Origin: a virus
Strand: one strand, 5' to 3'
Length of the DNA stretch: 25,008 nucleotides
IMG/VR virus record: IMGVR_UViG_3300032313_001771
Location: 1-25,008 of that record
Shown here in pieces: positions 5,070-24,170 of this stretch (position 1 is its first letter; each line of letters opens with the position of its first letter). Under the pieces are notes generated by a model, which did not search any database, was not told the DNA's origin, and worked only from the letters and a program-made list of their open reading frames with translations. The position numbers and the translations under genes are program-made.

Positions 5070-5540
5070 ATGGCAAACGGAGTTACATATGGTATTAATT
5101 TTCCATTCAGAGATTCGAGACGAGGAGATTATTTAGAGCTTACTCAATTAGCAGACCAACAGGTAAAGTCAGATTTAATTCATTTACTTCTAACCAGAAA
5201 GGGAAGTAGATATTATCTACCGAATTTTGGAACAAGATTATATGAATTTTTATTTGAGCCTTTTGATGGATTAACGTTTGATGCAATTCAATCGGACATA
5301 AGGGATGCTGTTCAGACTTTTATGCCAAATCTTTTATTAAATCAAATAACAATAACACCAGCAGATCCTGAGGAAGAAGTGGATAGTATGATAGGAGAAA
5401 ATACACTTGGTACAAGTGAATCACCAATCTATAGATTACCTGGCAAAGGAACCTCAGAATACACTGCAAAAATTAGAATAGATTATTCAAATAACAGATC
5501 GAGTTTTGCTCAAAGTGATTTTGTTATTATTAATATTTAA
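5070..5540 (+). CDS. Baseplate wedge protein, T4 gp25-like
   Basis: This is a member of the gp25/GPW family, the small protein that links the baseplate wedge to the first sheath ring and starts sheath polymerisation. It has 156 residues against 132 in T4. The diagnostic region is residues 20-98. The helix LADQQVKSDLIHLLLTRKGS is followed by RYYLPNFGTRLYEFLFEP (48-64), which is the family's G-R-x-x-P-x-F-G-x-x-L-x-x-x-L-F-x-P pattern. Next come an amphipathic helix and the PNLLLNQITITP strand (86-97). A short acidic insert at about 99-110 and a beta C-terminal tail make it slightly longer than T4's. It is the first structural gene after the terminator and sits five bases before the gp6-like gene, an arrangement common in contractile tails. 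The family call is strong. Confidence 0.9.
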   Translation: MANGVTYGINFPFRDSRRGDYLELTQLADQQVKSDLIHLLLTRKGSRYYLPNFGTRLYEFLFEPFDGLTFDAIQSDIRDAVQTFMPNLLLNQITITPADPEEEVDSMIGENTLGTSESPIYRLPGKGTSEYTAKIRIDYSNNRSSFAQSDFVIINI

Positions 5541-5545
5541 TATAG

Positions 5546-7384
5546 ATGGCAAATCGTAAAATTTCATATACAACCAGAGATTATCAGGGAATAAGAACTG
5601 AGTTACTTAATTATGTAAGGACTTACTATCCTGAACTTATCCAAGATTTTAATGACGCATCTGTATTCTCGGTGTTTTTAGATTTGAACGCTGCAGTTGC
5701 AGACAACCTACATTATCATATAGATAGAAGTATTCAAGAAACTGTACTTCAATACGCACAACAGAGGTCTTCAATTTATAATATTGCCAGAACTTATGGT
5801 TTGAAATTACCAGGCCAAAGACCATCTGTAGCCTTAGTAGATTTTTCAATAACTGTTCCTGTATTTGGTGATAAAGAAGACGAGAGATATTTGGGAGTTT
5901 TGACAAGAGGTTCTCAAGTTTCAGGAGCTGGTATTGTGTTTGAAAATATATACGACGTTGATTTTACCTCACCATACAATGCACAAGGTTTTCCAAACCG
6001 ACTCAAAATTCCAAACCGTAATGCCAACAATGTCATAATCAATTATACTATTACTAAAAGAGAACTTGTTGTAAATGGAATTACAAAAGTTTTCAAACGA
6101 GTAATAACTCCAAATGATGTTAAACCATTTTTTGAATTGTTTTTACCTGAAAAAAATGTTTTGGGTATTACAAGTGTTTTGTTAAAAAGTGGTACTGAAT
6201 ATACAAATATACCTACTGTCGCAGAATTTTTAGGTACACCTAATAAGTGGTATGAAGTAGATGCATTAGCCGAAGACAGAGTATTCATTGAGGACCCTAC
6301 TAAAGTTTCTGACCAACCTGGAATTAAGGTGGGAAGATATATACAAACATCAAACAGATTCATCAGTGAATACACTCCTGAAGGGTTTAAGAAGTTGACA
6401 TTTGGTGGAGGAACAAACACGGCTCAAGATGCCTTAGACCAATTTACAACTGTAGGGGCAACAATCGACTTACAAAGATATTCAAATAATTTATCTTTGG
6501 GGTCAGCTTTAACACCTAATTCAAGTTTATTTGTTCAATACAGAGTAGGTGGTGGATTGGGTACAAACTTAGGTACAAATGTAATCACACAAATAGGAAC
6601 TGTTTCATTTTTTGTTAATGGACCTTCTGAACTTACAAACTCTTCGGTAGTGAATTCTTTGAGATGTAATAACGTTACTGCCGCAATTGGTGGGGCGGGA
6701 TTACCATCACTCGAAGAAATTAGAAATTATGTTTCGTTTAACTTTTCAGCACAGAAAAGAGCGGTGACTGTACAAGATTATGAATCGATTATTAGAAATA
6801 TGCCTTCTGAGTTTGGTGCTCCAGCCAAAGTATCAGTAACTGAAAATAATAATAAAATATTAATTCAGCTATTATCTTATGATACTTCGGGTAAATTGAC
6901 GAATATAGTTTCGAATACTTTAAGACAAAACATTGCAACATATCTTTCTAACTACAGAATGATGAATGATTACATATCAATTTTCACCGCTGAAGTGATT
7001 GATTTAAGTGTTGAAGTTCAAGTCGTATTAACTTCAGCTCAAAATTCAGGACAAGTAATCGCTGAAATAGTTGACAGAATTTCAACATATTTTAATCCTC
7101 AAGTCAGAGAATTGGGACAAAACGTTTATTTATCAGAGATACAAAGCATTGTTCAAAACCAAAGTGGTGTTCTAAGTGTTTCTTCAATCAAAGTCTTCAA
7201 CAATGTTGGTGGTCAATATTCTTCAGCAGAAACTTCAATGGAATATTCAGACCCTGAAACAAAACAAATTGCACCTGTTAATTCAACAATTTTCGCACAA
7301 CCTTCTCAAGTGTATCAAATTAGATATCCAAATAAGGATATTAAAGTCTCGGTAATTAATTTCCAATCTACAACATTATCGTAA
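5546..7384 (+). CDS. Baseplate wedge protein, T4 gp6-like (baseplate J family)
   Basis: gp6/gpJ proteins form the wedge framework that holds the baseplate closed and opens on contraction. This one has 612 residues, close to T4 gp6 (about 660). The N-terminal signature is at residues 35-100: DFNDASVFSVFLDLNAAVAD, then a helix with HYHIDRSIQETVLQYAQQRS and the YGLKLPGQRPSVALVDF strand. This follows the family pattern in which a helical hairpin precedes a beta domain. Around 402-420 the segment AQKRAVTVQDYESIIRNMP is the typical 'R-x-V-T-x-x-D-Y' element of the J family. The C-terminal half carries the paired small domains, ending with a VYLSEIQSIVQNQSGVLSV element. It follows the gp25-like gene by five bases, so the two are almost certainly co-translated. 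I see no defect in it. Confidence 0.88.
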   Translation: MANRKISYTTRDYQGIRTELLNYVRTYYPELIQDFNDASVFSVFLDLNAAVADNLHYHIDRSIQETVLQYAQQRSSIYNIARTYGLKLPGQRPSVALVDFSITVPVFGDKEDERYLGVLTRGSQVSGAGIVFENIYDVDFTSPYNAQGFPNRLKIPNRNANNVIINYTITKRELVVNGITKVFKRVITPNDVKPFFELFLPEKNVLGITSVLLKSGTEYTNIPTVAEFLGTPNKWYEVDALAEDRVFIEDPTKVSDQPGIKVGRYIQTSNRFISEYTPEGFKKLTFGGGTNTAQDALDQFTTVGATIDLQRYSNNLSLGSALTPNSSLFVQYRVGGGLGTNLGTNVITQIGTVSFFVNGPSELTNSSVVNSLRCNNVTAAIGGAGLPSLEEIRNYVSFNFSAQKRAVTVQDYESIIRNMPSEFGAPAKVSVTENNNKILIQLLSYDTSGKLTNIVSNTLRQNIATYLSNYRMMNDYISIFTAEVIDLSVEVQVVLTSAQNSGQVIAEIVDRISTYFNPQVRELGQNVYLSEIQSIVQNQSGVLSVSSIKVFNNVGGQYSSAETSMEYSDPETKQIAPVNSTIFAQPSQVYQIRYPNKDIKVSVINFQSTTLS

Positions 7385-7456
7385 TAGGTTTATTATCTAA
7401 TACTTTGGTCTATAATTTATGATGTGTGTATTAACTTTGAAAAATTACACATAAAG

Positions 7457-7465
7457 TATTTATAA
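7457..7465 (+). promoter_or_regulatory. TATTTATAA box, candidate late promoter of the 1642-aa gene
   Basis: This is an identical 9-mer to the one at 5032, at the end of a 95-base noncoding gap and 14 bases before the start codon. A TTTG occurs at 7436-7439, 17 bases upstream, reminiscent of the -33 TTTG of Bacteroidota promoters, but this pairing is not repeated before the other boxes. The rest of the gap has only a weak 6-bp inverted repeat (7425-7430 with 7446-7451) without a T run. Confidence 0.5.
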
Positions 7466-7479
7466 ACTAAAGACAATAG

Positions 7480-10400: not shown

Positions 10401-12408
10401 GTATGGATTAGGTAAGTTATTTGGTTTAGAAAATGAGGATGACTTATTCATAACCGCGAATACGAGATTGAATATTCCAATTCAAAAATTACCTGATAGT
10501 ACTATTTCAGTTCAAAAGTTTAATAATCAGGATAATATTTTTTATCCATCTCACTTCTTCAGAGGTAATGATACGGAATTTTCGGCATTTACAACTAGCT
10601 TGGTAGGATATTATGGAGCGTATGATGCATTGAATCTGCCTCAAAACTCGTCCACATTGAATGTCAATGGGGTTAATTGTTTTGTATCATCAATTACAAA
10701 TGATTCATGGTCAAGTGGAATTGATGAACCTGCAAAATATACCACTTCCGAAGATTTGTCGGGAGGAGCTTATTATTTTGTAGAGGGGGGACAAGAACCA
10801 TCAACAACTAAAATTACATATTTCACAAGTGTATTATTACCAAGTTTGACTGCTAATCCGATGAGCATCACTTCAAGATTGAAAAATGTTATGAGGACTG
10901 ATAGGCTTCCATCTTCAGATGTATTGGACGGTTCAAGTTGGGATTACAATCCGTCATTACTACAACAAAACTTAGGATTTGCAGTCTATGTTATAGATGA
11001 CGAAGGAGGGGTGATTCAAACATCTAATTTCTCTACAGGGGCTGAAATAGCTAATCCTGATATTGTGGGTCAGTATGCTTCTTCAAACGTGTTCGAGACT
11101 CTTAATACCTGTAGTCAAATTGTAAGTTTGGGATGTTATGAAGGATTTGGAACTGACTTCCAAGTCAATCAGAATTGTGCGGATAAGGATGCGGTTATAG
11201 GAGGATGTTATCAATTCCTGAAAAGACCTTTATTGGATATAGGGAAAGACGTAAGAAATTTCAATGAATGGGCTTATCGATGGAGATTTTTTTATGGGTT
11301 ATGCCAAGGAGTATTATCTCAATCATTTGTAAACAATTGGATAAATGGGGCATTGTACATGTATCCTATACAAGTTAATACAATTTTTGATTCTCAAAAC
11401 AAACCTGAACCACCTATTTTTTGTAAAGATGTAATATACTTTGAAAGTGATACCAATAACTTCTATTATAGAAGTAGTCCATTTAATGAGTTTACAAATA
11501 AATTTGTTGGTAAATTAGCGACTCAACCAGGGGCATTAAATGATTTGAATTTACAATCCCCAACAACAGTCATCAATCTTGGAATGAAGGATAGTTTCTA
11601 TAATGAAATTATCTTGGGGGATGGTGATACAGGTGCTTATGTGATGAATCAAATGAATCCTACTTCATATGGAGATCCATCTGACTTGATAAACCTTTTT
11701 GTGATTTCAAGGATTACGGATGAAAAATTTTTACAACGAATTATTAGCGGTAAAGACAATGGTATAAACCAACTTTTTTCAAGACCTAGTCTTCGAATAG
11801 ATGGTGATTTAGCTCAATTATTATCTATCAATTCGGAATTGGGAGTGATTAAGTTTTCACCTGAATTCTATCAAATTGTCCCTAATCAATTAGGGCCTGT
11901 AGAAGTTTTAGGTACTCCGTCAAATCCTCTAATTGCTGTTTGGTTTTCATCCACAACCGAGGACCTTCAAGTTAAAGATTACTTAACTCCAGGAAGAATT
12001 AATTTCAGAACAAATGATAATTCTGTAAATTATCCATATCCATATGGAATTAAATCACAGATAGTTCCTTTCTATCAGTGGAAATTAACAAATCAAAACA
12101 CAATATTTGGGTCAGAGCTTAATAATTGGGCAACTAATTATGTGGATATTGTTCAAGATAAACTATATCAATCCTTGGACAGAACGAGTCTTACAACTCC
12201 AAACTATTTTAGACCTTTGACAAGTAGTGTAAGTGACTTGTATGCTAGAGGTTACATTTTCAGTGTAGATGCCGCAGGTAATTATTCTACAACAGGAGCG
12301 TCATCTGGCCGATTCATTGTTGGAGCACCATTCCATTTTTATTTTGGAATAGTAAAAGGTAATAGTGCTTTAGATAAATTCAAAACAAAGTATTCTGTAG
12401 ATGAATAA
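7480..12408 (+). CDS. Very large tail/baseplate-region protein with Ig-like N-terminus and internal multi-pass hydrophobic block
   Basis: A 1642-residue protein with no family I can name with certainty. Residues about 48-172 look like a carboxypeptidase-regulatory-type beta sandwich (VLVGRVTANNGFGIPNARVSIFI ... TNDSGDYMIMGVPLGQQTIVMDV) with a long insert at about 75-140. Residues about 508-647 are strikingly hydrophobic. Two Ile/Leu/Phe/Val-rich stretches come first, then a short basic linker (KAAVKGFKEKANA), then Ala-rich and Leu-rich stretches, enough for roughly four to five membrane spans. A CASCEC motif (C663, C666, C668) follows at once. The remaining 970 residues are polar and beta-rich, with a Cys cluster at C1211, C1219, C1233 and C1243. 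By position (after gp25/gp6) and size it could be a wedge component or a protein delivered at infection. It overlaps the next gene by eight bases. The gene is certain; its role is inference. Confidence 0.85.
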   Translation: MGDSYRIKTELGINKSINVQLDQEFEFLEILSLKIQQTDIYTRSCADYGVLVGRVTANNGFGIPNARVSIFIPIEQVDESNPLITSIYPYKSPNDKNEDGYRYNLLPYTPSYSKHSATGTLPSRSDVLTGGTAVEIYDKYYRFTSKTNDSGDYMIMGVPLGQQTIVMDVDLSDIGEFSLTPQDLIRIGLATEAQVAGNKFRTSSDLNSLPQIINLVKNAEISPLWGDPEICDISINRLDFDLRDDANVDIQPTSVFMGSIFSTEDNFRLRSNRILGNELGCRPRDNMGNLCDLVPGPGQILAIRQTIQQDENGNPVLEVYELEQAGNVIDGDGTWIVELPMNLDYFITNEFGEKVISSDTTIGIPSKAKYRFKIKWQQSPGLSQQTRRASFLIPNVREYGWIDSGNDPNYSTNVTRQNKLKSSYYFGLDWNGYVTGFTSSERIQKLNEIIDCQDTFYEFKFNRVYTVSNLIDQYKKGGRGRFIGIKEIDDASCNSTVNKFPTNDGFKNFNILFFVFSILMQVIQIVSIPLLIVTHVVAFMWNLFIRLRVWISSFIGILILVNVFLGIKAAVKGFKEKANAISFAAAATAAAATLVLAPLAVLFGVLSVTSATAAAAFFASAVQYAITAAKLGALLIALNVIFKLVKGQPIKGFNLPVITYPDCASCECGVSEADSENSSLSLGTLASQFSNSSLYYNKLVNAVIQLGISQENSEAVAGSFSSTIGGNNTTNNNNQAYKVMESEPGILATTDGGNEYFTYSNYIPFGERINNFNLRQKYFNGSNRISVSFDTDLNKHYDSTLILIYDAPLDSGTLLTFVDPLLTRDVNATYTGNTGGYVRGISGTPLNPGLSTYNVEYCDPNNQLNNLSVSYLLSSGSTLTNYKFPSDVEYFQVLTGITVSEASTIWDTSTVGSLPNIMNSGTQVIISVKFPVIGWNETTLSELQIKDLFESFSEKYILILQRGVDPYSPLYNNKYGLGKLFGLENEDDLFITANTRLNIPIQKLPDSTISVQKFNNQDNIFYPSHFFRGNDTEFSAFTTSLVGYYGAYDALNLPQNSSTLNVNGVNCFVSSITNDSWSSGIDEPAKYTTSEDLSGGAYYFVEGGQEPSTTKITYFTSVLLPSLTANPMSITSRLKNVMRTDRLPSSDVLDGSSWDYNPSLLQQNLGFAVYVIDDEGGVIQTSNFSTGAEIANPDIVGQYASSNVFETLNTCSQIVSLGCYEGFGTDFQVNQNCADKDAVIGGCYQFLKRPLLDIGKDVRNFNEWAYRWRFFYGLCQGVLSQSFVNNWINGALYMYPIQVNTIFDSQNKPEPPIFCKDVIYFESDTNNFYYRSSPFNEFTNKFVGKLATQPGALNDLNLQSPTTVINLGMKDSFYNEIILGDGDTGAYVMNQMNPTSYGDPSDLINLFVISRITDEKFLQRIISGKDNGINQLFSRPSLRIDGDLAQLLSINSELGVIKFSPEFYQIVPNQLGPVEVLGTPSNPLIAVWFSSTTEDLQVKDYLTPGRINFRTNDNSVNYPYPYGIKSQIVPFYQWKLTNQNTIFGSELNNWATNYVDIVQDKLYQSLDRTSLTTPNYFRPLTSSVSDLYARGYIFSVDAAGNYSTTGASSGRFIVGAPFHFYFGIVKGNSALDKFKTKYSVDE

Positions 12409-14098
12409 ATATTCTTTAATACCAAGTAGTCAGAGATATAAAGGTGCTCCCGCATTGAATGAAGAATTGACAATCACTCTTCAAGAACAAAGCCAGGAGA
12501 TTACTGAGTATGATCGAACATCAACTCTGAATTTAGCTCAAGTCTATGACAACGAAAGACAATCAAACACTATTTTTAGACCAACATTCAAAGTTACATA
12601 CCTTTACGATAATACTTATACCGGCAATACTACGTATCTTCCATTCCAATATAATCTATATTATACTGACCCTATTTCATCTAAACAAAGTGGTATTTGG
12701 AGAGGATTCCCCCAATATTATGAATTTGATTTCTATAGACCTAACGTAGGAGACAATCATTTTCAATATAAAGCTAAAAGTGCTTACACCTATAATTGGA
12801 TGTACTATCTAACATATCCTTATGAGAATGATGGGAATAGACAACTTACATATTACTCAAGGACAAACAATGATGTGAATTGGATTGCGTCTAGTGGTAT
12901 TCCATTTTCGATTACAAGTACTACTCGTAATGGTAATGGATTGGTTTCATTCGTATGTATTGCTCCACATGGATTGACAATAGGGGAATATGTTGAATTG
13001 TCTTTCAGTTATAGAGGGAGCAACATTTTTCAAGTGTTTTCATTGGGGAATGGATTATTTGGGAGTAGGGAACACGTATTCAATTTGTTTAACATTGGAT
13101 TTACTGGAGCAACATTTAGTAATGGTAAAGTTGGAACTTTTAGAAGAGTTATTAACCCAAGTAATTTGATAGAAACAAGGTCTAAATATTATATTAAGAA
13201 ATATAAAGTTTTAACCAATCTTACTGACCTTGCTATAACCAAAGCAGGATTTGAGAAAAATGTGTTCGGGGAGCAAAGTAAGTTAGAATATAGTTCAATT
13301 ACGCCAAATAATGTAACTAGGATTTCCCAAAAGTTGAGTTCTAATGCCTTTGACTTAACATCAAATTATGATTTGGATTTTGCGGCATTACGGGACAATC
13401 AAAAAAGACCATTGAATGAAATCAGTTTAACAATCATTAACAAAGGATATTCAGGTTATTTCAATCAACCATTCAGAGGAGTTGGTTTGAAACAAGGGTG
13501 GGAGTTTAACTTATCAAAAAATATTAATCCATGGTGGGACCTGAAAAATGAAAGGTCAAATACGAGTATTCCTGTTTCAGCGTATACTCTTACCAATGGT
13601 GCGAGAAAGACATTTTATTATAATCTCGATTTGAAAGCAGGTGATGTAATTGATGGTGATTTTTGTGAGTGGAATGATTATGAACAAGCTGAACGTGTCG
13701 TATCCAAATACTATCACAAATTGAAGTTTAATCAGGAGGTGTTTCAAACAACAAATAATTATTCAACAAACACACCAGGATATTACTACAGCCCCCACAA
13801 TGCTATGGTTCTGAAAGTTTTTTCAGATTACATTGAAACTGCTAATTTGGGTCAAATTGATAATGTACCAAGTTGGGCGTTTTATTCAAACGTAGACCGG
13901 CAGTTTAGATGGAGAGATATTTATACCTATGGATTTATAGACAACTTGGGACGTGGTGTTGATTATCCATATTTGAATTCTGCCCATTATCCATATACTC
14001 AGGTAATTTTTAGATTAATTCCTGAAGGAATAAATTACAATGAAAATCTTGATGGATTTAACTTTGCTATAAAACCACTAATTGATGAGTGTGAATAA
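12401..14098 (+). CDS. Unidentified structural protein in the baseplate cluster
   Basis: A 565-residue protein that I do not recognise. It is rich in Tyr, Asn, Phe and Thr with few Cys, which is typical of beta-structured virion proteins. The segment CIAPHGLTIGEYVEL at about 186-200 has the 'HGL-x-x-G-(D/E)-x-V' shape seen in small beta domains of various phage tail proteins. The C-terminal third contains Trp/Tyr-rich segments such as DGDFCEWNDYEQAERVVSKY. There is no signal peptide, membrane span or catalytic motif. The ATG lies inside the end of the preceding gene (ATGAATAA context, eight-base overlap), so it is probably translated by coupling with the 1642-residue protein. It also overlaps the next gene at its own 3' end. 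A baseplate or baseplate-peripheral role is inferred from this context only. Confidence 0.75.
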   Translation: MNKYSLIPSSQRYKGAPALNEELTITLQEQSQEITEYDRTSTLNLAQVYDNERQSNTIFRPTFKVTYLYDNTYTGNTTYLPFQYNLYYTDPISSKQSGIWRGFPQYYEFDFYRPNVGDNHFQYKAKSAYTYNWMYYLTYPYENDGNRQLTYYSRTNNDVNWIASSGIPFSITSTTRNGNGLVSFVCIAPHGLTIGEYVELSFSYRGSNIFQVFSLGNGLFGSREHVFNLFNIGFTGATFSNGKVGTFRRVINPSNLIETRSKYYIKKYKVLTNLTDLAITKAGFEKNVFGEQSKLEYSSITPNNVTRISQKLSSNAFDLTSNYDLDFAALRDNQKRPLNEISLTIINKGYSGYFNQPFRGVGLKQGWEFNLSKNINPWWDLKNERSNTSIPVSAYTLTNGARKTFYYNLDLKAGDVIDGDFCEWNDYEQAERVVSKYYHKLKFNQEVFQTTNNYSTNTPGYYYSPHNAMVLKVFSDYIETANLGQIDNVPSWAFYSNVDRQFRWRDIYTYGFIDNLGRGVDYPYLNSAHYPYTQVIFRLIPEGINYNENLDGFNFAIKPLIDECE

Positions 14099-14918
14099 AT
14101 TTACGATTAGACAAGACGCGATTGTTGATAAGCAAATCAATATACCTGTTGAACTCAAGTGGGATTATTTGGGGTTGGACATGGCAATTGATGAATATGA
14201 AACAAAAGCCATTGAAGACGTTATAGGTAAAGGAAGGGATTTTGAGGTCTCAAGATTTTCTCATGCTCCTGCTACAGGAACAACTGACAACACTGCGGTC
14301 AATTATGAATTCTATTTTTATTCTGGTGGGTCGTTGAATGACATTAACAATTGGAGAATAAACTATTTGAGTGAGGGATTCACTCCTCAAGAAGTTTATT
14401 ATTACAATAATAACTTCGCGAATTCATTTTTCAAATTGGATTTCTATGACACTCCTGATGAAAAACAACAAACGAATTATATAACCATAATTCTTCCAAC
14501 CCAACAAGGGTTGTTTATGGAAACGCAGATGCAAAGAACTTTGGTTAATATAAGAAAACCTCAGTTTGTTTTGGATTACGTTGGAGACAAAGAAGGGTTT
14601 TTTATTTATTGGTTGAAGAAAAGAAATTTCTTGGACATTAATACATTCTATATGACCGCAAAGTTTTTCAATGCAAAGACTGGTCAATTCACCAAAATGA
14701 TGACAGGTAGAGGAACAAGCCAAATTGATTCAACAAATGGACCCCAAGTTTATTTAACTGAAAACAACAAATATACTTTTGACAACACACAGTACTTTTA
14801 TTACACGGTGAAGTTAAATTATGAGGCACAAACTTACCAAGTGTTGAACACAACAGGTCAAAGGTTGGGAACAAACATTCCCATAAAATGGTATGAGTAC
14901 GTTAATCCACCACAATAA
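14085..14918 (+). CDS. Unidentified structural protein in the baseplate cluster
   Basis: A 277-residue protein of unknown family. I place the start at ATG 14085 (MSVNKFTIRQDAIVDKQINI) rather than the in-frame TTG three bases earlier. This start lies within the last codons of the preceding gene, whose stop is at 14096-14098, giving a 14-base overlap consistent with coupled translation. The N-terminal 40 residues look like an extended arm leading into a folded domain (PVELKWDYLGLDMAIDEYE). The rest is a Tyr/Phe/Asn-rich beta protein without Cys, membrane segments or recognisable motifs. The 3' end shares one base with the next start codon (TAATG). It is most likely a partner of the proteins encoded on each side of it. 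I cannot offer a specific function. Confidence 0.72.
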   Translation: MSVNKFTIRQDAIVDKQINIPVELKWDYLGLDMAIDEYETKAIEDVIGKGRDFEVSRFSHAPATGTTDNTAVNYEFYFYSGGSLNDINNWRINYLSEGFTPQEVYYYNNNFANSFFKLDFYDTPDEKQQTNYITIILPTQQGLFMETQMQRTLVNIRKPQFVLDYVGDKEGFFIYWLKKRNFLDINTFYMTAKFFNAKTGQFTKMMTGRGTSQIDSTNGPQVYLTENNKYTFDNTQYFYYTVKLNYEAQTYQVLNTTGQRLGTNIPIKWYEYVNPPQ

Positions 14919-16012
14919 TGTCACAGGATAGTTATAGATTCATAGTTTCACCTGAGAATATCAAAGGAGATTTGTCTGTTATAGATTACAAAGGGACACC
15001 TGTTGGGGTTTATTCAGCAATGACCCAAGTTGTTAGTTCAGGACCAAATGGTACTTCATTATTGACTGACTTATCAGTACCTATTTTGTTAAGACAAACT
15101 GCTGTCGATGCGGGATATTATAGTCCTTTTGATGGAGCGGTGTTACAAAAAGATGTGGTGGCAAATTTTTTATTTTCATCAACAACAAGCCAACCTTATG
15201 TTTGGAATGTGTATAATACATCAGACCAATTTCAGAAGTTTTTGGAATTGTCTGTGTATAGAGTTGATTGGGGGGACGGAAGTCCTAAACAAACAATTAC
15301 CACTTATGCTCCAAACTCAATTACTCATACATACCCAACTGCTACGAAACAATATACAATCACTTTGGAACAAACAAATCCATGGGGAATAACTAAAGTT
15401 TCCAAGACTATCAATGTTCCGTTTTCTGATGTGGTGATATATAATCCTCAAGGTCAGGCGTTCTTTGCTCCATCCACAGGTAATTGGATTGGGACACCAG
15501 TATCATATAATTACATTTTTTCGGGAGATGCTGTCAACGTGGTTTCAGCACAAACATCGAACAACTATGTAACAATACCATTCACAGTATCGGGAAATAC
15601 TAAATCAAGGGTTAATGAATTGGCATTCTATGGTAGTCCTAAATTTCGAGTCGGAGTACCTGTAATAAGTAATGGTCAAATATGGGGTGCGATTACTGAT
15701 ATAAATCCTGTTTATACTGCTTACACAATAACGGAAGTGAACTATTATGATTATAAAGATGGAACTACAATATTTTTCCAACAATCATCGGGATTCACTT
15801 CTAATAATCTCACTGCAGAACCTATCACTAAAGATGAGGTTCTTCTCAAAGTTATAGACCAAGCACAGATACAAACCAATGTTTTTGTGGAGAGAGGAAA
15901 GAATAGTGCTTATGAAAGAGTTTTGAGATTGGGTGAGGTTGATAATTTGGGAGATATGATTAACTATGGGTATGGATTTTTTAATGTAGTTAATAAAGAA
16001 AGTACCAATTGA
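14918..16012 (+). CDS. PKD-domain virion protein
   Basis: A 364-residue protein with one clear PKD-type Ig-like domain at about residues 110-170: VDWGDGSP at 116-123 is the hallmark W-G-D-G turn, and ITHTYP at 135-140 with the YTITL strand completes it. PKD domains are protein- or glycan-contact modules known from surface proteins and from phage tail components. The remainder (1-105 and 171-364) is beta-rich and unassigned, with no signal peptide or membrane segment. Translation is coupled to the previous gene through a TAATG overlap. The gene ends the second structural run, because a 39-base gap with a promoter-like box follows. The PKD call is good. Its place in the baseplate, tail or fibre is inferred from neighbours. 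Confidence 0.8.
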   Translation: MSQDSYRFIVSPENIKGDLSVIDYKGTPVGVYSAMTQVVSSGPNGTSLLTDLSVPILLRQTAVDAGYYSPFDGAVLQKDVVANFLFSSTTSQPYVWNVYNTSDQFQKFLELSVYRVDWGDGSPKQTITTYAPNSITHTYPTATKQYTITLEQTNPWGITKVSKTINVPFSDVVIYNPQGQAFFAPSTGNWIGTPVSYNYIFSGDAVNVVSAQTSNNYVTIPFTVSGNTKSRVNELAFYGSPKFRVGVPVISNGQIWGAITDINPVYTAYTITEVNYYDYKDGTTIFFQQSSGFTSNNLTAEPITKDEVLLKVIDQAQIQTNVFVERGKNSAYERVLRLGEVDNLGDMINYGYGFFNVVNKESTN

Positions 16013-16027
16013 AAAAAAGAACTAAAC

Positions 16028-16036
16028 TATTTATAA
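16028..16036 (+). promoter_or_regulatory. TATTTATAA box, candidate late promoter of the 302-aa gene
   Basis: This is the third exact copy of TATTTATAA, in a 39-base gap and 15 bases before the ATG at 16052. The spacing to the start codon is nearly the same as for the copy at 7457. The following bases extend it to TATTTATAAATTA, which also includes a partial sense-strand match to TATAAATA. Confidence 0.5.
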
Positions 16037-16051
16037 ATTAAATAAAAGAAT

Positions 16052-16960
16052 ATGGCAATCGGCTCATACGGTACAATAAGACCTTCAGATGTTTCACCAG
16101 CAGATGTTGAAATTATTATGAACTATACTCCAACAAGGGATGTGACAGACCAATTTGTTTTAACAAAGTTGGATGCACAAACTATATTGAGACCTTACTT
16201 CGCAAACACTGAAACTGGTGGAACTCCTGATGTTGAAGTTTTGGGAGGACTTTATAATTTGACATTACCGGCAAATCAATTCAATGCGTTGGGAATTTAC
16301 ACATTATATATAAGACCCGCTGAAATTAGAACGGTGATTACTGATTGTGGGGTTTTAAGTGCTTTACCAAATGTGAAAGGTATTATCATTGACATTAGTG
16401 ATGTACCAACACAATATCAAAACAAATTTGTCCCACAGGGGTTGGTAGGATTTAGAGTGGAATACCTCAATCCAGATGGGTCAAAAATTCCTAACTTTTT
16501 CAGAGTCGTTACATCAAGTTTCTTTTGTGAACCAGTGACAACAAATGAAGTTAATACAACGCAAAAGGCGATAAGATATAGATATGTTGAAGGGGACTCA
16601 AATCTGATATTCTTAACATTGTCACCATCTTCATCACCAACAAACAAACCAAATTCAACTCCGTTCATTGGACAGCCAGACCAAGATATTATAATTACAA
16701 ATACATTTTTCAATCCAGTATCCATAGAGATTGAAATGGTTGAGTATGACATTTCTTCTCTTGCAATTGCTCTATATGGTAATCAAACTAAGTCTATTGA
16801 TGATGGAATCTACACTATCTACGACGCTAATGATAACATATATAGACAATACAACCTATACGAAATCAGAGACCAATTTAATGCTCTTCTTTATGAGGTT
16901 AGACAAAGTAGAGGTAATAATATTGATTTTAGTAAAAACTTTACAAATATAACTAATTAA
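16052..16960 (+). CDS. Unidentified structural protein preceding the gpI/gp7-like gene
   Basis: A 302-residue soluble protein of unknown family. It starts MAIGSYGTIRPSDVSPADVE, has a beta-rich centre with two Cys (near 'ITDCGVL' and 'SSFFCEP'), and a Ser/Pro/Thr-rich loop (TLSPSSSPTNKPNSTP) at about residues 190-205. A polar C-terminal helix region ends NNIDFSKNFTNITN. It leads a transcription run (box at 16028) and its stop codon overlaps the next ATG (TAATG). Being immediately upstream of a large wedge-like protein, it could be a baseplate wedge or fibre-attachment protein comparable in size to T4 gp8 or gp9. I see no sequence motif that proves this. Confidence 0.72.
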   Translation: MAIGSYGTIRPSDVSPADVEIIMNYTPTRDVTDQFVLTKLDAQTILRPYFANTETGGTPDVEVLGGLYNLTLPANQFNALGIYTLYIRPAEIRTVITDCGVLSALPNVKGIIIDISDVPTQYQNKFVPQGLVGFRVEYLNPDGSKIPNFFRVVTSSFFCEPVTTNEVNTTQKAIRYRYVEGDSNLIFLTLSPSSSPTNKPNSTPFIGQPDQDIIITNTFFNPVSIEIEMVEYDISSLAIALYGNQTKSIDDGIYTIYDANDNIYRQYNLYEIRDQFNALLYEVRQSRGNNIDFSKNFTNITN

Positions 16961-19947
16961 TGGCGACTACTCAAAGGAATACTAAATTTTTCTACCCACC
17001 ACGGCCAGGTAGTGGAGCGGGAACCTTCTCTGACAACATTGTTGGATTACAAACAGTGGAGGGAGGAGGACTTACGCAAGGAAACTTTGAGTTCACAACT
17101 TCGGTTACAGAAAGAGTAACTAGAGACTTTAATGTAGGAGCGTTCTCTCAACCAATTGGTTTGGATGGGTTAAATATTAATGACTTAGAGGAAAGTAGGA
17201 GGATAATTGCGACACAATTCAGAGTTTATCCAAATTACGATGTCTCTCAAGTATTAAACTTTTCGATGTATGGATCTTTGAGTAAAAGATTTCAGGTGTC
17301 AGTAACAGAAATAATTAATAGGTTTCCAGCGTCTTTGGATATAGTCTTCAACAATGAAGACTTTGTGACTGGAGCAACTGCAACTAATATATCTTATGAT
17401 ATTAATACTGATGAAACTACATTAAGAATAAACACTGATAGAATCAATAATCCTTTTGATATTGATTATTCATTAAGTGCAACAACTAATCTATCAATTA
17501 GAGAGATAGTGGTTTCTCCTTATAGAAATTTGTATAACACCTATTTGGATTATTGTATTGCCATTAATGACAACATATTCAACGTAGTTTCCTTTACTCC
17601 ATCTCCAACATTATCATCAGGATACATTGAATTTATAGTTTCAGGTGCGCCATTTGGAAAAACTGCGACCATATCATACGAAGAATTTCAAGTTAGACCA
17701 AATGATTTAGTTACAGATAGAATATTTGCTGAAAACTTTGACGAAGTTCAAAAGTTTTTGTTGAATAGATTAATCAGACCTGAATACACGGCAGTGTTTC
17801 AAGTTCCTCAACAAAATGAGTCAGGTCAATTTTTTACGAATTATCAACAAGTAACTTGGCCAAAAGAAGGTCCGTGGAACTTAGATATTAAATCATTTCT
17901 TTTTGAAGATTACCTTACTCAGTTGGAATCAATCGCTGTCAACTTGGATTCATTCAAAACCAATTTGATTTCAAGATTTTTGGTTTCGGATTCCCTTAAA
18001 GAATTCGATACACTTGGACGTAAGGTTGAGAAGATATTCCAAATTTACGGAAGAAGTTTTGACCAAATCAAACAATTCATAGATGCCTTGGCATATATGA
18101 ACTCAGTGAATTACAATCCATCGAATGATATTCCATCACAATTATTAGCCAATTTGGCGCAAACACTTGGATGGAGTTCAAATTTTTCACCAATAACTAA
18201 TGAAGATTTCCTTAGTTCAGTTTTTGGAAATACTTCAACTCCAACTTATCCTGGATATGCAAGAGCATTAGCCCCAACAGAATTAAATTACGCTTATTAT
18301 CGTAATCTTATTTTGAATGCGTCTTATTTATTCAAATCCAAAGGTACGAGACGTTCGGTTGAATTTCTGTTAAGATTAATCGGAGCACCTGATTCTCTGA
18401 TTGAATACAACGAACACATTTATTTAGCAGACCAAAAAATTAATATGGAACAATTTAATGTTCAGTGGGCTGCAATATCAGGAGGAACATATGTTCAGAA
18501 TACTCCAGGTTTTATACCAGGTTCTACATATAAAATCAAAGGACAATCTTTTAGTGCATTCACTTCTATTGCGACTTATCAAGATGTTGCAACAAGACTT
18601 GGTGATTATCCTGTAGATGCTACAGGTTTCCCAAAGGCGCCAATAAATACTGAGAGTTATTTCTTTCAATTAGGAGCGGGATGGTACGAATCTACTCCTT
18701 CTCACAGAAGCCCTGACCAAGTTACAATTACAGGACAAATATATACAGGTCAAAACTTTAACATACAGACACAATTACAGCCATTCACTTATGGACAACT
18801 TTATTTGAATAGGTTTAGAGATTTTCCTTATATGACTGAGGGATTCAAACTTAAAAAAGTTGTAGACAATAATAAATCTTGGTTGGCGGAAGATGATAGA
18901 ATAAGAGTTTCAACAAACGCTGATTACAATGCGTATTATTTTGTAGATGATGAGAGATTAGTTCTCAATGTCAAAAACGTAGATTTGTTTTTGAATCCAG
19001 CACAAGGTTTAGTTTATGATGTTTGGGATGAATCAAGACGATATGATTATCCAATCCCTGAGTCAGGATTAACAGTTGGATATCCCGTACCTGGTGGAGT
19101 CGATAGTACATTTGTAAATCCACAACCGAAGAAAAAAACATTTTTTGAGTTCTCTCAAACTTTTTGGGAGAATATGATTAATGTGAGGAACCGTCAATAT
19201 ATTACTGATGGTAAAACAGGTGGGTATCCAACGCTTCAATCAATTTTTTGGAAATACATTGAATCTGAAAGTACAGTTGGAATACCAAACAACAAATACA
19301 CTTATCAAAAATTGATTGATTATGTAAATGGTATTGGGCCTTATTGGATGAAGTTGGTGGAACAGATGTTTCCAGCTACTACGATTTGGAATACAGGTGT
19401 CAAAATGGAAAACTCGATTTTCCAAAGACAAAAATTTGTCTATCGAAGACAGAGAGGATGTCAATTCATACCAGTTCCTGTTGACCCTTGTTTTATAATA
19501 TCAAATATTTTCGATTATAACTGTACAACTGAATATACTGACTTTAATATATTTCCATGGCTGAATGGAGATGTTGATGTTAGTAATTTCAGTAGCATTT
19601 TATCGAATAGAGTCAACAGTATGTTGGCACAAAGTGGTCTGACTTTGAATGATTGTCTTACAAATTCTGTACAGAGCAGTTGGTATGTTGATTTGAGAAT
19701 AGGTGGGGATATAATAATTCAAGAATTGTTCTATGTGGGTTATGGACTTACAGATGTTCCGACCAACACTATGTGGAGAAACGCATTGATACAATATCTA
19801 CCACAATTATATGATTATGGATTCACATTTTTCTTAAACGGAAATGTGTTGACCATCACAAGTTTGACTTGTACAGAAAGAAATTTCAATGAAGTACTTT
19901 CGTTGAATTCGGGGATAAATATAAGTATTAATTGTCTTAATAACTAA
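16960..19947 (+). CDS. Large baseplate protein with tail-protein-I/gp7-like segment
   Basis: A 995-residue protein. At about residues 340-490 it resembles the P2 gpI / contractile-tail 'gp7-like' family. A helical region (FDTLGRKVEKIFQIYGRSFDQIKQFIDAL) precedes a 'Y-R-N-L-I' helix, and then comes the signature SYLFKSKGTRRSVEFLLRLI with GAP after it. The 'K-G-T-R-x-x-(V/I)-x-x-L-L-x-x-x-G-x-P' pattern is what I recognise. T4 gp7 is of similar size (about 1030 residues), so this may be the wedge initiator equivalent. N-terminal residues 1-330 and the region 500-850 are beta-rich and unassigned. The last roughly 140 residues form a separate module, also present at the end of the next gene's product: VPTNTMWRNAL at 933-943 lies 62 residues before the C terminus. 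It touches its neighbours by TAATG overlaps on both sides. Confidence 0.78.
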   Translation: MATTQRNTKFFYPPRPGSGAGTFSDNIVGLQTVEGGGLTQGNFEFTTSVTERVTRDFNVGAFSQPIGLDGLNINDLEESRRIIATQFRVYPNYDVSQVLNFSMYGSLSKRFQVSVTEIINRFPASLDIVFNNEDFVTGATATNISYDINTDETTLRINTDRINNPFDIDYSLSATTNLSIREIVVSPYRNLYNTYLDYCIAINDNIFNVVSFTPSPTLSSGYIEFIVSGAPFGKTATISYEEFQVRPNDLVTDRIFAENFDEVQKFLLNRLIRPEYTAVFQVPQQNESGQFFTNYQQVTWPKEGPWNLDIKSFLFEDYLTQLESIAVNLDSFKTNLISRFLVSDSLKEFDTLGRKVEKIFQIYGRSFDQIKQFIDALAYMNSVNYNPSNDIPSQLLANLAQTLGWSSNFSPITNEDFLSSVFGNTSTPTYPGYARALAPTELNYAYYRNLILNASYLFKSKGTRRSVEFLLRLIGAPDSLIEYNEHIYLADQKINMEQFNVQWAAISGGTYVQNTPGFIPGSTYKIKGQSFSAFTSIATYQDVATRLGDYPVDATGFPKAPINTESYFFQLGAGWYESTPSHRSPDQVTITGQIYTGQNFNIQTQLQPFTYGQLYLNRFRDFPYMTEGFKLKKVVDNNKSWLAEDDRIRVSTNADYNAYYFVDDERLVLNVKNVDLFLNPAQGLVYDVWDESRRYDYPIPESGLTVGYPVPGGVDSTFVNPQPKKKTFFEFSQTFWENMINVRNRQYITDGKTGGYPTLQSIFWKYIESESTVGIPNNKYTYQKLIDYVNGIGPYWMKLVEQMFPATTIWNTGVKMENSIFQRQKFVYRRQRGCQFIPVPVDPCFIISNIFDYNCTTEYTDFNIFPWLNGDVDVSNFSSILSNRVNSMLAQSGLTLNDCLTNSVQSSWYVDLRIGGDIIIQELFYVGYGLTDVPTNTMWRNALIQYLPQLYDYGFTFFLNGNVLTITSLTCTERNFNEVLSLNSGINISINCLNN

Positions 19948-22082
19948 TGGCGGTATTAAATTATAACATAGCGGTTACAGGTGATTGTTCCAACAATAAC
20001 TCAGGGGCACTCAATCTTTATGTTAGTGCGGGGTCACCTCCATATACAGTACAATTTATCAGTCCGTCTTACTCTTCACAAATCATCACAACTCAACCAG
20101 CTTCCCTTGCTGGATTGGCAAGTAATGTTTATCAAATTAGAGTTAATGATAGTAGTCTACCCACTAACAATGAATTTTTAATCAATATTCCAATATCAAG
20201 TGGGGTCTGTGGTTCTATAAGTGCAGTTCAAAACACAACTTGTGGAAACAATAATGGTTCAGTTACGGGTTCTTCAACTTCATTATACTCTTCAACAGAC
20301 TTTTTTTTGTATGATGTAAATAACAATTACCTGGCATCTGCAAATACCGTTACAAATGCGGCGGTTTTTGGTGGATTGAGTGCAGGAACCTATTATTTAG
20401 GAGTAACAGATTTAGGAGGATGTACGGCATTCACTCCAACTTTTATTGTACAAGACTCTGAAAATTTGGATTTCGGACTTTATGTTGTTCCAAATTCAAG
20501 TTGTGGAGGTTCACCGATAGGTAAAATTTTTGTAACAGGTCAAACGGGACAAGCTCCTTTCAGTTATTTGTGGAATGATGGCCAAACAGGGAGTACAATC
20601 ACAGGATTAACTTCTGGTCTTTACTCGGTTACTGTGACAGATGCTTATGGCTGTACTCTGTCAAAGTCAGGAACTATCACGAATGTAAGTCCAATTGGGC
20701 TTGGGTTATTCACTGCCACTGAACCAACTTGTCTTCAATCAAATGGAGTAATTAACATGACAGTAACAGGCGGTACTGAGCCATTTTATTATTCGGCATC
20801 TACAGGAAGTGTTCTAGTATCCTATTCAAGGACGTTTTCAATTTCAGGATTATCTGCGGGTCAATATAATTTCTTAGTAACAGATGCAGGATTGTGCCAA
20901 ATGACTGCAGGTATAACACTTGAAACACCAGGTGGATTGACAAGTGTTACAGTACAGGGACAGAATTCAACTTGTTCTACAAACAACGGTTCAATCTTAG
21001 TAAATGTTGTTGGAGGTACAGTGCCTTACACTTATACTTTAATTTATCCAACAGGTAATCAACTCAATATTAGTAATTCACAAACTAGTCAAATTTTCCA
21101 AAATCTAAGTGGAGGAACTTATTCTGTTGCTGTTTCAGACAATAGTGGATGTTCATTTTTACAAGAATTGACATTATTGACACAAAACAAATTTACAGTT
21201 TCAACACAAGTATTGGGAACAAGTTGTGGTCAAAGCAATGGAAGTGTTACAATTTTTACATCCTCAGGAGCAACCTTACCTTTGGATTATTCTGTTGATG
21301 GAATACAAAATGTTATTGACACAAATTTGAGTGCGGTGACATTCAACAATCTTTCATCAGGAACTCATGTTGTTACAGTAACTGATGATGATAATTGTGC
21401 TCAGATAACAAATATATTAGTTTCTCCAAGCCAACAATTAAACTATACTTTATATAGCACTTCTTGCGGTAGTGGGTCGAGTGGTAAAATTACTGCATTC
21501 ATAACCTCAGGTGAGCCACCATTTAGTTTTAATTGGTCAGATAATGTACCAAATGAACCTCAACAAATACAAGTCAGTGGACTTACTGCTGGAACTTATT
21601 CTTTGACAGTGGTGGACGCTAATGGATGTTCATTAACAAGAAATACAACTATAACTTGTAATTCAAATTATGCGTCTTACCAAACTTATGTCATGGGTGC
21701 TGAGATATTTAATATTCAATCTCCAACTAAATTTGGATTACTTCAAATGTTAAACGAGGGGTATTTTGATTTAACCTCAGGTAATACAGGTTGTGATTTA
21801 ATAAGTGCAACGTTTACTGCAAAAGTTTCCGTAAATCCATCGGGAGTTATCGCTTCTCAAAATTTCTTCACATCAACATCTTTGGTTCAAGTCCCAACAG
21901 ATAATGATTGGTATAATACGCTAAGAACTTTATTACTTGGAATTCCTGGTGTTGGGAGTGTTATAATTGACCAATTAAATAATCAAATTACTATCGAGAC
22001 AAGTAGAAACAATACTTCATTAGAAGGGGAAGAAATTGTGATCGATTTGATTATAAACTATAACATAATTTGTTTATCATGA
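19947..22082 (+). CDS. SprB-type repeat protein of the phage tail
   Basis: A 711-residue protein composed of about seven imperfect repeats of 75-82 residues, at roughly 5-88, 90-172, 173-250, 252-330, 333-412, 415-492 and 497-572. Most open with a Cys followed by an N/G-rich turn (TTCGNNNGSV, TCLQSNGVI, TSCGQSNGSV), continue with a P-Y/F-x-Y/F strand, and close with GLSAGTYxxxVTDxxGC. This is the SprB repeat pattern, a beta-sandwich family best known from large gliding adhesins and other surface proteins of Bacteroidota. A non-repeat C-terminal domain (575-711) matches the end of the preceding protein, with VPTDNDWYNTL at 649-659. There is no signal peptide or sorting domain, as expected for a virion component rather than a secreted host protein. 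Likely an elongated tail or fibre adhesin; the target is unknown. The stop overlaps the next ATG (ATGA). Confidence 0.85.
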   Translation: MAVLNYNIAVTGDCSNNNSGALNLYVSAGSPPYTVQFISPSYSSQIITTQPASLAGLASNVYQIRVNDSSLPTNNEFLINIPISSGVCGSISAVQNTTCGNNNGSVTGSSTSLYSSTDFFLYDVNNNYLASANTVTNAAVFGGLSAGTYYLGVTDLGGCTAFTPTFIVQDSENLDFGLYVVPNSSCGGSPIGKIFVTGQTGQAPFSYLWNDGQTGSTITGLTSGLYSVTVTDAYGCTLSKSGTITNVSPIGLGLFTATEPTCLQSNGVINMTVTGGTEPFYYSASTGSVLVSYSRTFSISGLSAGQYNFLVTDAGLCQMTAGITLETPGGLTSVTVQGQNSTCSTNNGSILVNVVGGTVPYTYTLIYPTGNQLNISNSQTSQIFQNLSGGTYSVAVSDNSGCSFLQELTLLTQNKFTVSTQVLGTSCGQSNGSVTIFTSSGATLPLDYSVDGIQNVIDTNLSAVTFNNLSSGTHVVTVTDDDNCAQITNILVSPSQQLNYTLYSTSCGSGSSGKITAFITSGEPPFSFNWSDNVPNEPQQIQVSGLTAGTYSLTVVDANGCSLTRNTTITCNSNYASYQTYVMGAEIFNIQSPTKFGLLQMLNEGYFDLTSGNTGCDLISATFTAKVSVNPSGVIASQNFFTSTSLVQVPTDNDWYNTLRTLLLGIPGVGSVIIDQLNNQITIETSRNNTSLEGEEIVIDLIINYNIICLS

Positions 22083-22438
22083 ATCAGGTAAGAATTACGG
22101 AAATATCGGGAGGTACTTATCCTATAAGTGTTTACATATCAGATGTCTATGGAAATAACCAAACACTTTTAGGGACTATTTCTTCAGGACCAGTTCCACC
22201 TGTTGTTGAATATAATACAGTAATACCTTCAATATTCTCAACTGCGCCTGAAATAATGTTAAAGTTGGTCGATGGCAACAACTGTGAAGTATTCAAAATA
22301 CTCCAATGTACTTTTGGATGCGCGTTTGAAATTACAATCGAATTGGCATCTTGTATTGTTAACATTGATATCCAAGAATCCAATTGTAATTTCTCTATTT
22401 ATAGTACAGAAGCGAATTGTGGATTCATTTTAATTTAA
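22079..22438 (+). CDS. Small protein ending in four 11-residue Cys repeats
   Basis: I start this at ATG 22079, in the ATGA overlap with the previous stop, giving 119 residues. An upstream in-frame TTG at 22070 is less likely. Residues 1-75 form a beta domain (VRITEISGGTYPISVYISDVYG ... KLVDGNNCEVFKI) that resembles a single SprB-like sandwich. Then Cys residues occur at exactly 11-residue steps: C81, C92, C103 and C114, each followed by a short alternating hydrophobic strand (CAFEITIELAS, CIVNIDIQESN, CNFSIYSTEAN, CGFILI). Two further Cys at 69 and 77 precede them. Such regularity suggests a small beta solenoid or stacked hairpins. It is probably a cap, chaperone or partner for the SprB-type protein. 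I know of no named family for it. Confidence 0.75.
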   Translation: MNQVRITEISGGTYPISVYISDVYGNNQTLLGTISSGPVPPVVEYNTVIPSIFSTAPEIMLKLVDGNNCEVFKILQCTFGCAFEITIELASCIVNIDIQESNCNFSIYSTEANCGFILI

Positions 22439-22497
22439 TAAAAAAAATATTCATTCTATATTTTTAACATATCGTAAATGAAATAGAATAGTTGTGG

Positions 22498-22506
22498 TAT
22501 TTATTT
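22498..22506 (+). promoter_or_regulatory. TATTTATTT box, degenerate candidate promoter
   Basis: In the 82-base gap before the Thr/Pro-rich gene, TATTTATTTAATAA begins 23 bases before the ATG at 22521. It shares TATTTAT with the exact boxes at 5032, 7457 and 16028 and occupies a similar place. A weak 7-bp inverted repeat (22453-22459 with 22483-22489, 23-base loop) lies upstream, but lacks a T run and is not a convincing terminator. Confidence 0.3.
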
Positions 22507-22520
22507 AATAAAAACATCGG

Positions 22521-24170
22521 ATGTCTACATATTCTATTTTAGTTACGAACAATGCCCCTGGTTGCACAACCGAGATTGAGCAACAACTTACGGTCACTGG
22601 TTGTACTACATACATCGTTAGACTTGCTTCTAACTCAAACGCGTTAGGTCCATTTAACATTTATGTTGATGACGTAATTTATTATTCTGCAGCAACAAGA
22701 AATGACATGTTCAATGGTATTGTGGTTGTATTAGAATGTGTAACTCCAACTCCAACTCCAACACCTACAACGACTGTAACTCCGAGTATTAGTGCATCAC
22801 CTGGACTGTCACCAACGGCAACTCAGACACCTACAAATACGCCAACGGTAACAAATACACCGACAAATACTGAAACTCCAACAGTAACACCGACTAATAC
22901 ACCTACAAATACAATTACACAAACACCAACAAATACTGAAACACCAACTAATACTCCTACAAATACAATTACAAATACGCCTACAAATACAATTACAAAT
23001 ACGCCTACAAATACCGAGACACCAACAAATACGCCTACAAATACAATTACACAAACACCAACAAATACTGAAACACCAACACCTACACCAACAGAAACTC
23101 CAACAAATACGCCAACTAATACCGCAAGTGTTACACCAACTAATACTGAGACACCAACTGAAACTCCAACAAACACGCCTACAGAAACACCAACTAATAC
23201 ACCAAGTGAAACACCAACACAAACTCCAACTAATACTGAAACACCAACACAAACTCCAACTAATACTGAAACACCAACTAATACACCAAGTGAAACACCA
23301 ACACAAACACCAACTAACACACAGACTCCAACAGAGACTCCAACAAACACGCCTACAGAGACTTCAACTAACACGCCAACACAAACACCAACTAACACAG
23401 AGACACCAACAAATACACCAAGTGAGACTCCAACAGAGACTCCTACAAACACGCCTACAGAAACACCAACTAATACACCAACTCAAACCGCAACTGTAAC
23501 TTCAACACCTAGTGAGACACCAACACAAACGCCTACAGAGACTCCAACTAACACACCAACTACTACAACAACACCAACTAATACACCTTCACCTACACCT
23601 ACTAGTCAACCGTTATTTGCTTATGTAACTATTGAACCACAAGGACAAACGTCTAATTTCAATGGATGGATGTTATCACAAGGTTCTGCGTTCCGTGGAT
23701 TCGGGATTAACGGAGCGACAACCGCAAACGCTGTAACATTTAACCAACAGATGAATGCTTACTTGAACTACTCAGGATGGGGAGGAAATTCACCTGCAAT
23801 CATTACAGGTACAATTTCTCCAACATCAGGTGGAAATGATGCGTATGGTAATCCAATTAACGCTTATTTATTCCAAACAACACAAATACCAGCGGGAACA
23901 ACACCAAGTAATGCTTGGTATACATGGTATATATCTACGGGAGCAACAAATGGTCAAATTATGACACAAATTGCAACTAATACCGCAAATAATCCAACTG
24001 CATTGGTAGGGAGAAATCTAAATTCATCTTACTATAACCTAACGGTATCATATACTGGTGGTACAATCCCACCAGGTACATATCGAGTTTATACTACTTA
24101 TTCAGATCCTGCCTTTAGAATAAACGCATCGCTAAACAATATTTATTTTAAAGGAAACGCATTAATATAA
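22521..24170 (+). CDS. Two-domain adhesin-like protein with long Thr/Pro repeat linker
   Basis: A 549-residue protein in three parts. Residues 1-73 are a small beta domain with Cys at 15, 28 and 73. Its first 28 residues ([12 protein letters not shown] ... TVTGC) look like the closing hairpin of an SprB-type repeat, followed by [14 protein letters not shown]. Residues 75-361 are almost wholly Thr, Pro, Asn, Glu and Gln in TPTNTP/ETPTQTP units, uncharged except for Glu, and should be an extended flexible or glycosylatable rod. Residues 362-549 form a globular domain starting [12 protein letters not shown], Gly/Asn/Thr-rich with many aromatics and no Cys. It is a plausible receptor-binding or fibre-tip domain. 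No signal peptide or membrane anchor is visible. Neighbouring genes encode other adhesin-like proteins, so a fibre or whisker role fits. The function is inference. Confidence 0.8.
22902..23080 (+). repeat. 47-bp exact direct repeat with a nested 24-bp tandem duplication
   Basis: Bases 22902-22948 and 23034-23080 are identical (47 bp) at an offset of 132 bases (44 codons). Between them a 24-bp unit is perfectly duplicated in tandem at 22959-22982 and 22983-23006. Both preserve the reading frame. Confidence 0.85.
23184..23308 (+). repeat. Overlapping 41-bp and 42-bp exact repeats in the Thr/Pro array
   Basis: Bases 23184-23224 recur at 23268-23308 (41 bp, offset 84). Bases 23207-23248 recur at 23237-23278 (42 bp, offset 30, so self-overlapping tandem copies). 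Offsets are whole codons. This is a second duplication centre, separate from the one at 22902-23080. Confidence 0.85.

Follow-up and report, generated by a model that had tools for sequence, protein, structure and literature searches.

Seven SprB-type repeats in a tail-cluster protein of a jumbo-phage lineage, probably the shaft of a tail arm

The SprB domain is known mainly from giant T9SS adhesins of Bacteroidota; F. johnsoniae SprB, for example, has 6497 aa (PMC9870892) and is exported by the T9SS (PMC12635249). It is also a fixed part of the tail-gene cluster of a widespread, apparently freshwater lineage of jumbo phages. Here, we analyse a 25-kb virus record from this lineage (25,008 nucleotides, hereafter the window) and propose, with a probability of about 0.62, that the product of its SprB gene is a structural arm on the contractile tail of a jumbo phage with a Bacteroidota host, an arm that docks through its C-terminal domain and positions binding tips.

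The gene occupies 19947..22082 on the + strand and encodes 711 aa from an ATG, exactly the open reading frame singled out in the first-pass annotation, and the SprB membership proposed there from the repeat pattern was borne out by a Pfam profile search (PF13573, E 1.3e-21, 76.3 bits in six stretches, with a gathering cut-off of 28 bits). The same profile exceeds its cut-off in the contigs of ten relatives, single repeats reach up to E 2.6e-9 when the window DNA is searched, and none of 14 control genomes was matched. With a profile derived from the window's repeats themselves, the originally estimated 'about seven' becomes exactly seven, spanning aa 1-572; the Pfam scan passes only six because the repeats are divergent. 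The most divergent, R1 (19947..20207, aa 1-87; own-repeat profile aa 3-86), is followed along the chain by R2 (20208..20459, aa 88-171; profile aa 88-170), R3 (20460..20690, aa 172-248; profile aa 173-247), R4 (20691..20936, aa 249-330; profile aa 250-328), R5 (20937..21185, aa 331-413; profile aa 332-413), R6 (21186..21431, aa 414-495; profile aa 415-494) and the most conserved, R7 (21432..21662, aa 496-572; profile aa 496-573), all on the + strand. Within the protein the units are 16-43% identical to one another and thus form an old array; recent tandem duplication is ruled out by these identities together with the positional orthology across phages described below. Common to the repeats, with variations, is the pattern C..NG / GG.PY.Y / G.Y...V.D..GC; occupancy of its two cysteine positions is 97% and 83% among phage repeats and 95% and 95% among cellular ones, suggesting that the cysteine pair arrived together with the SprB module. 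The window protein has 17 cysteines in total, all of them invariant or nearly so in 42 relatives.

An AlphaFold2 model of the protein comprises seven Ig-like all-beta domains (pLDDT 82.8), in keeping with the beta-sandwich fold that had been anticipated. The pTM of the whole model is 0.34, as expected of a flexible chain, and the model therefore does not predict the overall shape of the arm. Its best matches among solved structures, found with Foldseek, are parts of GhpA (E 5.6e-18), the grappling hook of Aureispira sp. CCB-QB1 (PDB 9flp, 9fly), followed by animal Ig and fibronectin arrays and alpha-2-macroglobulin-type proteins. Alignment of GhpA with the whole model gives a VIA Z of 12.2 over 509 residues at an rmsd of 54.8, and the very large rmsd of such long alignments means that the match is one of domain by domain rather than of overall shape. 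GhpA is itself a bacterial protein of >5000 residues, and likeness in fold to the phage protein does not imply grappling; as far as a predicted model can tell, the resemblance fits a Bacteroidota origin of the SprB module.

The array is followed by a separate alpha/beta domain of 139 aa (21663..22079, + strand, aa 573-711), not of the SprB type, which the first-pass annotation had overlooked. Modelled alone it is predicted with good scores (pLDDT 89.9, pTM 0.83); Foldseek returned no significant known fold (best E 0.023), and a VIA Z of 7.2 to the little finger of Y-family polymerases may reflect only a common arrangement. A profile of the domain found no significant match in cellular SprB proteins. 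Among the proteins of these phages, its best similarity other than to itself is to the C-terminus of the protein encoded immediately upstream, a 995-aa tail-cluster protein (hhalign E 0.003, with five column shuffles giving E 0.24-0.49; hmmsearch E 0.014 at best), and this is suggestive of a docking domain common to the C-termini of the two proteins.

The tail-gene setting assigned to the locus at the outset holds. Upstream lie genes for a baseplate wedge gp25-like protein (5070..5540, + strand) and a baseplate wedge gp6 or Baseplate_J-like protein (5546..7384, + strand), and between the latter and the 995-aa gene are several tail-cluster ORFs without family matches. A 364-aa tail-cluster protein at 14918-16012 contains a PKD-like stretch by eye (VDWGDGSP...HTYPT), for which there was no Pfam confirmation. 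The 995-aa gene (16960..19947, + strand), whose product is 78-99% identical among the relatives fetched, is the immediate upstream partner of the SprB gene, the ATG of the latter overlapping its stop by 1 nt; homologues of the 995-aa protein were not found in LR756502, LR756508, LR745206, immuto or pT24, in a search run without a positive control. On the 3' side, a small protein (22070..22438, + strand), which more likely starts at the ATG at 22079, is present in most relatives. Beyond it, at 22521..24170 (+ strand), is encoded a candidate tip carrier, a protein whose conserved N-terminus and variable C-terminus are separated by a long stalk of Pro/Thr repeats. The repeats of its stalk are of the TPTNTPT type, and similar stalks recur in several proteins of the lineage.

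How firmly the SprB gene belongs to this cluster becomes clear from its relatives in IMG/VR, which as contigs reach 326 kb. When read piecewise, the 326-kb relative was found to encode a portal, a terminase large subunit and a DNA polymerase, as well as a cluster of 12 tRNA genes (L199 6622-13149), and we therefore assign the lineage to the tailed jumbo phages; that it is a freshwater lineage is a reading, not a tabulation, of the source collections and of described aquatic relatives. Counting each distinct locus once and requiring ≥1 kb of sequence beyond the 995-aa gene, 67/67 relatives carry the SprB protein. Its gene comes directly 3' of the 995-aa gene in all relatives checked, and the complete copies (60/60) uniformly contain seven repeats and the C-terminal domain. 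In a tree of repeats from five phages plus cellular repeats, R1 to R7 are each monophyletic across phages (SH-aLRT 98-100), so that no repeat swapping is seen since the five sampled phages diverged; with only 83 columns, this joint tree was too short to settle the direction of transfer.

Selection acts on the protein throughout, with dN/dS at 0.05-0.10 in every domain, values that leave the notion of a diversifying receptor binder unsupported. Mean pairwise identity rises from 57% in R1 to 73% in R7 and is 70% in the C-terminal domain, the most variable stretches being loops in R1 and R2 (33-44% pairwise identity). In contrast, relatives diverge strongly in the genes that lie a few kilobases farther downstream. 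The protein is longer in six of the 60 copies, where the C-terminal domain is followed by a Pro/Thr-rich stalk; four of these have an additional domain after the stalk (L043, L060, L067 and L224). By eye, some of the additional domains resemble repeat propellers, for which the three copies scanned gave no supporting Pfam match.

The host is most likely a member of the Bacteroidota, at no finer rank, a placement that upholds the link to this phylum drawn in the initial reading and that rests on genomic signals of three kinds: the absence of Shine-Dalgarno leaders, the kinship of the ribonucleotide reductase and the cellular relatives of the repeats. A Shine-Dalgarno signal precedes 4.3% of genes, as compared with 4.2% in Bacteroidota contigs and 56% in T4, and start sites have A-rich leaders. 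The ribonucleotide reductase is nearest to those of Cellulophaga and Tenacibaculum phages, while the baseplates of isolated phages nearest by sequence include that of Flavobacterium phage immuto (~26% identity) and also that of a Microcystis phage. Related repeats were matched in 63 cellular loci, 62 of them in Bacteroidota, and the matches stop near aa 570 in most loci and extend further in a few; the one locus outside Bacteroidota (L158) is from a MAG labelled Sphingomonadales that carries a SprB protein and is possibly a misassigned genome. SprB arrays do not appear to be a general trait of Bacteroidota phages, as none was seen in the Cellulophaga and Flavobacterium phage isolates scanned and Tenacibaculum phage pT24 has one borderline match (E 0.003).

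Taken together, these observations lead us to favour a protein that is part of the virion and probably works as a tail shaft, holding or positioning binding modules. The seven SprB-type Ig-like domains would form a beads-on-a-string rod in which the conserved cysteine pair staples each repeat, the disulfides presumably forming after lysis, and the lineage-specific C-terminal domain would dock to other tail proteins or to receptor-binding modules. The arm could then extend towards or across the host surface layer and position binding tips; these may be the variable and Pro/Thr-stalked products of downstream genes, or else domains that some relatives have fused to the C-terminus of the SprB protein itself. 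A shaft is favoured over a diversifying adhesive surface because of the fixed seven repeats, their positional orthology and the low dN/dS, and because the variable tips are elsewhere or appended while the array itself stays fixed under strong purifying selection; the copies that continue into a stalk, most of them with a further domain, argue in the same direction. As to orientation, the C-terminal stalks suggest that the C-terminus of the arm is distal; the conservation gradient from R1 to R7 and the possibly shared C-terminal domain suggest that it is baseplate-proximal.

The best-surviving alternative, though an unlikely one, is that the SprB protein is itself the adhesin, its repeats binding host surface glycans, as proposed in the first-pass annotation, or an extracellular polymer for reversible attachment. 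SprB domains do come from surface adhesins, the closest solved fold belongs to a Bacteroidota protein, GhpA, the location among tail genes agrees with such a role and loops in R1 and R2 are the most variable stretches; however, the repeat order is fixed across the lineage under strong purifying selection, the variable genes sit downstream, and Ig-like arrays are generic stalks, contactins and fibronectins matching nearly as well as GhpA. Less probable still is a Hoc-like or whisker-like decoration of head or neck, loosely surface-binding and merely encoded in the tail cluster. One stretch of the protein matches phrog_3945, 'Hoc-like head decoration' (E 9.3e-8), and profile comparison shows a weak resemblance to a neck-whisker protein of a phage (E 0.023) and to decoration proteins (E 0.06-0.29), but such matches probably reflect Ig-like domains in general, and the position of the gene in all relatives checked, in a baseplate cluster and directly after the 995-aa gene, speaks against this reading. 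We regard as a long shot a form of mimicry in which a virion arm would bind host SprB filaments or their exopolysaccharide ligands, so that moving gliding adhesins carry the phage towards its injection site.

In line with the initial reading, no secretion signals were found. No T9SS type B sorting domain (CHU_C / TIGR04131) was found in the window protein with either Pfam or NCBIfam, both of which matched the positive control (L107), no hydrophobic stretch is visible by eye at its N-terminus (MAVLNYNIAVTGDCSNNNSG), and the tail-cluster ORFs scanned (5070-24170) gave no Pfam match to a SprF/PorP-type partner. The control is the 1670-aa SprB protein encoded at L107 10873-15885 of LR756502.1, a 642-kb record of an uncultured phage from a metagenome; its 13 repeats are accompanied by a PKD domain, an apparent signal peptide and a T9SS type B sorting domain. 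By this domain content it amounts to a host-type adhesin, complete and encoded on a huge-phage record, and so differs from the window protein. Such a record gives some precedent for the idea that the window gene is cargo, a host adhesin gene whose product reaches the host surface by secretion in the course of infection rather than being built into the virion. We nonetheless consider this highly improbable for a core gene fixed in a tail cluster whose product shows neither a sorting domain nor an apparent signal peptide, the window ORFs scanned also giving no PorP/SprF partner.

Compared with the SprB gliding adhesins (F. johnsoniae and the Flavobacterium rakeshii and Flagellimonas homologues), the phage repeats belong to the same PF13573 family, have the same two cysteine positions and are predicted to be Ig-like beta-sandwiches, whereas the phage protein is far shorter, has no T9SS sorting domain or apparent signal peptide and ends in a domain without significant match in cellular proteins. 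Ig-like modules are displayed on phage virions, as in Hoc and other decoration or tail Ig domains; these belong mostly to other Ig families, in contrast to the window array with its SprB type, cysteine pair and fixed seven-fold repetition. A phage protein already labelled as such, A0A6J5LD72 of an uncultured Caudovirales phage (714 aa, 34% identity over 729 columns, Foldseek E 4.7e-63), is very probably a distant member of the same family, and its 'SprB repeat' label is automatic only, with no functional study found in our literature search. The PHROGs family phrog_26672, 'virion structural protein', also matches the phage repeats (E 1.7e-6); its matches include SprB-type repeats at G001:C1:34025-34477 and LR756502.1 515419-517929. 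The moraphages (PMC12619734) are likewise large aquatic phages with predicted Bacteroidota hosts and gp25 and gp6 baseplate genes, described up to 307 kb as against at least 326 kb for the window lineage in a comparison of size and gene content; the glutamine synthetase and DnaK reported in them (PMC12619734) were not found in six contigs of the window lineage.

What was already known, then, is the 'SprB repeat' label on a phage protein and a PHROGs 'virion structural protein' family matching the repeats, and our literature search found no paper on SprB repeats in phages. Our analysis adds the anatomy of the protein, with exactly seven repeats and a C-terminal domain specific to the lineage, and shows that this layout is universal and positionally orthologous among these jumbo phages, is under purifying selection and in some copies carries modular tips at the C-terminus. 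The proposed arm would provide a concrete, testable part in the process by which such phages gain access to the surface of gliding bacteria, together with a clean example of one Ig-like module serving both predator and prey, while the combination of seven repeats and C-terminal domain offers a marker protein for spotting this lineage in metagenomes. Elsewhere in the longer contigs there is a second SprB-containing protein of 591-949 aa with Pro/Thr-rich linkers (L113 3378-6227, L115 5388-7877, L117 7297-9072, L118 13367-15685, L119 7710-10199 and L120 7504-10188), which in several contigs lies ~20 kb from the first.
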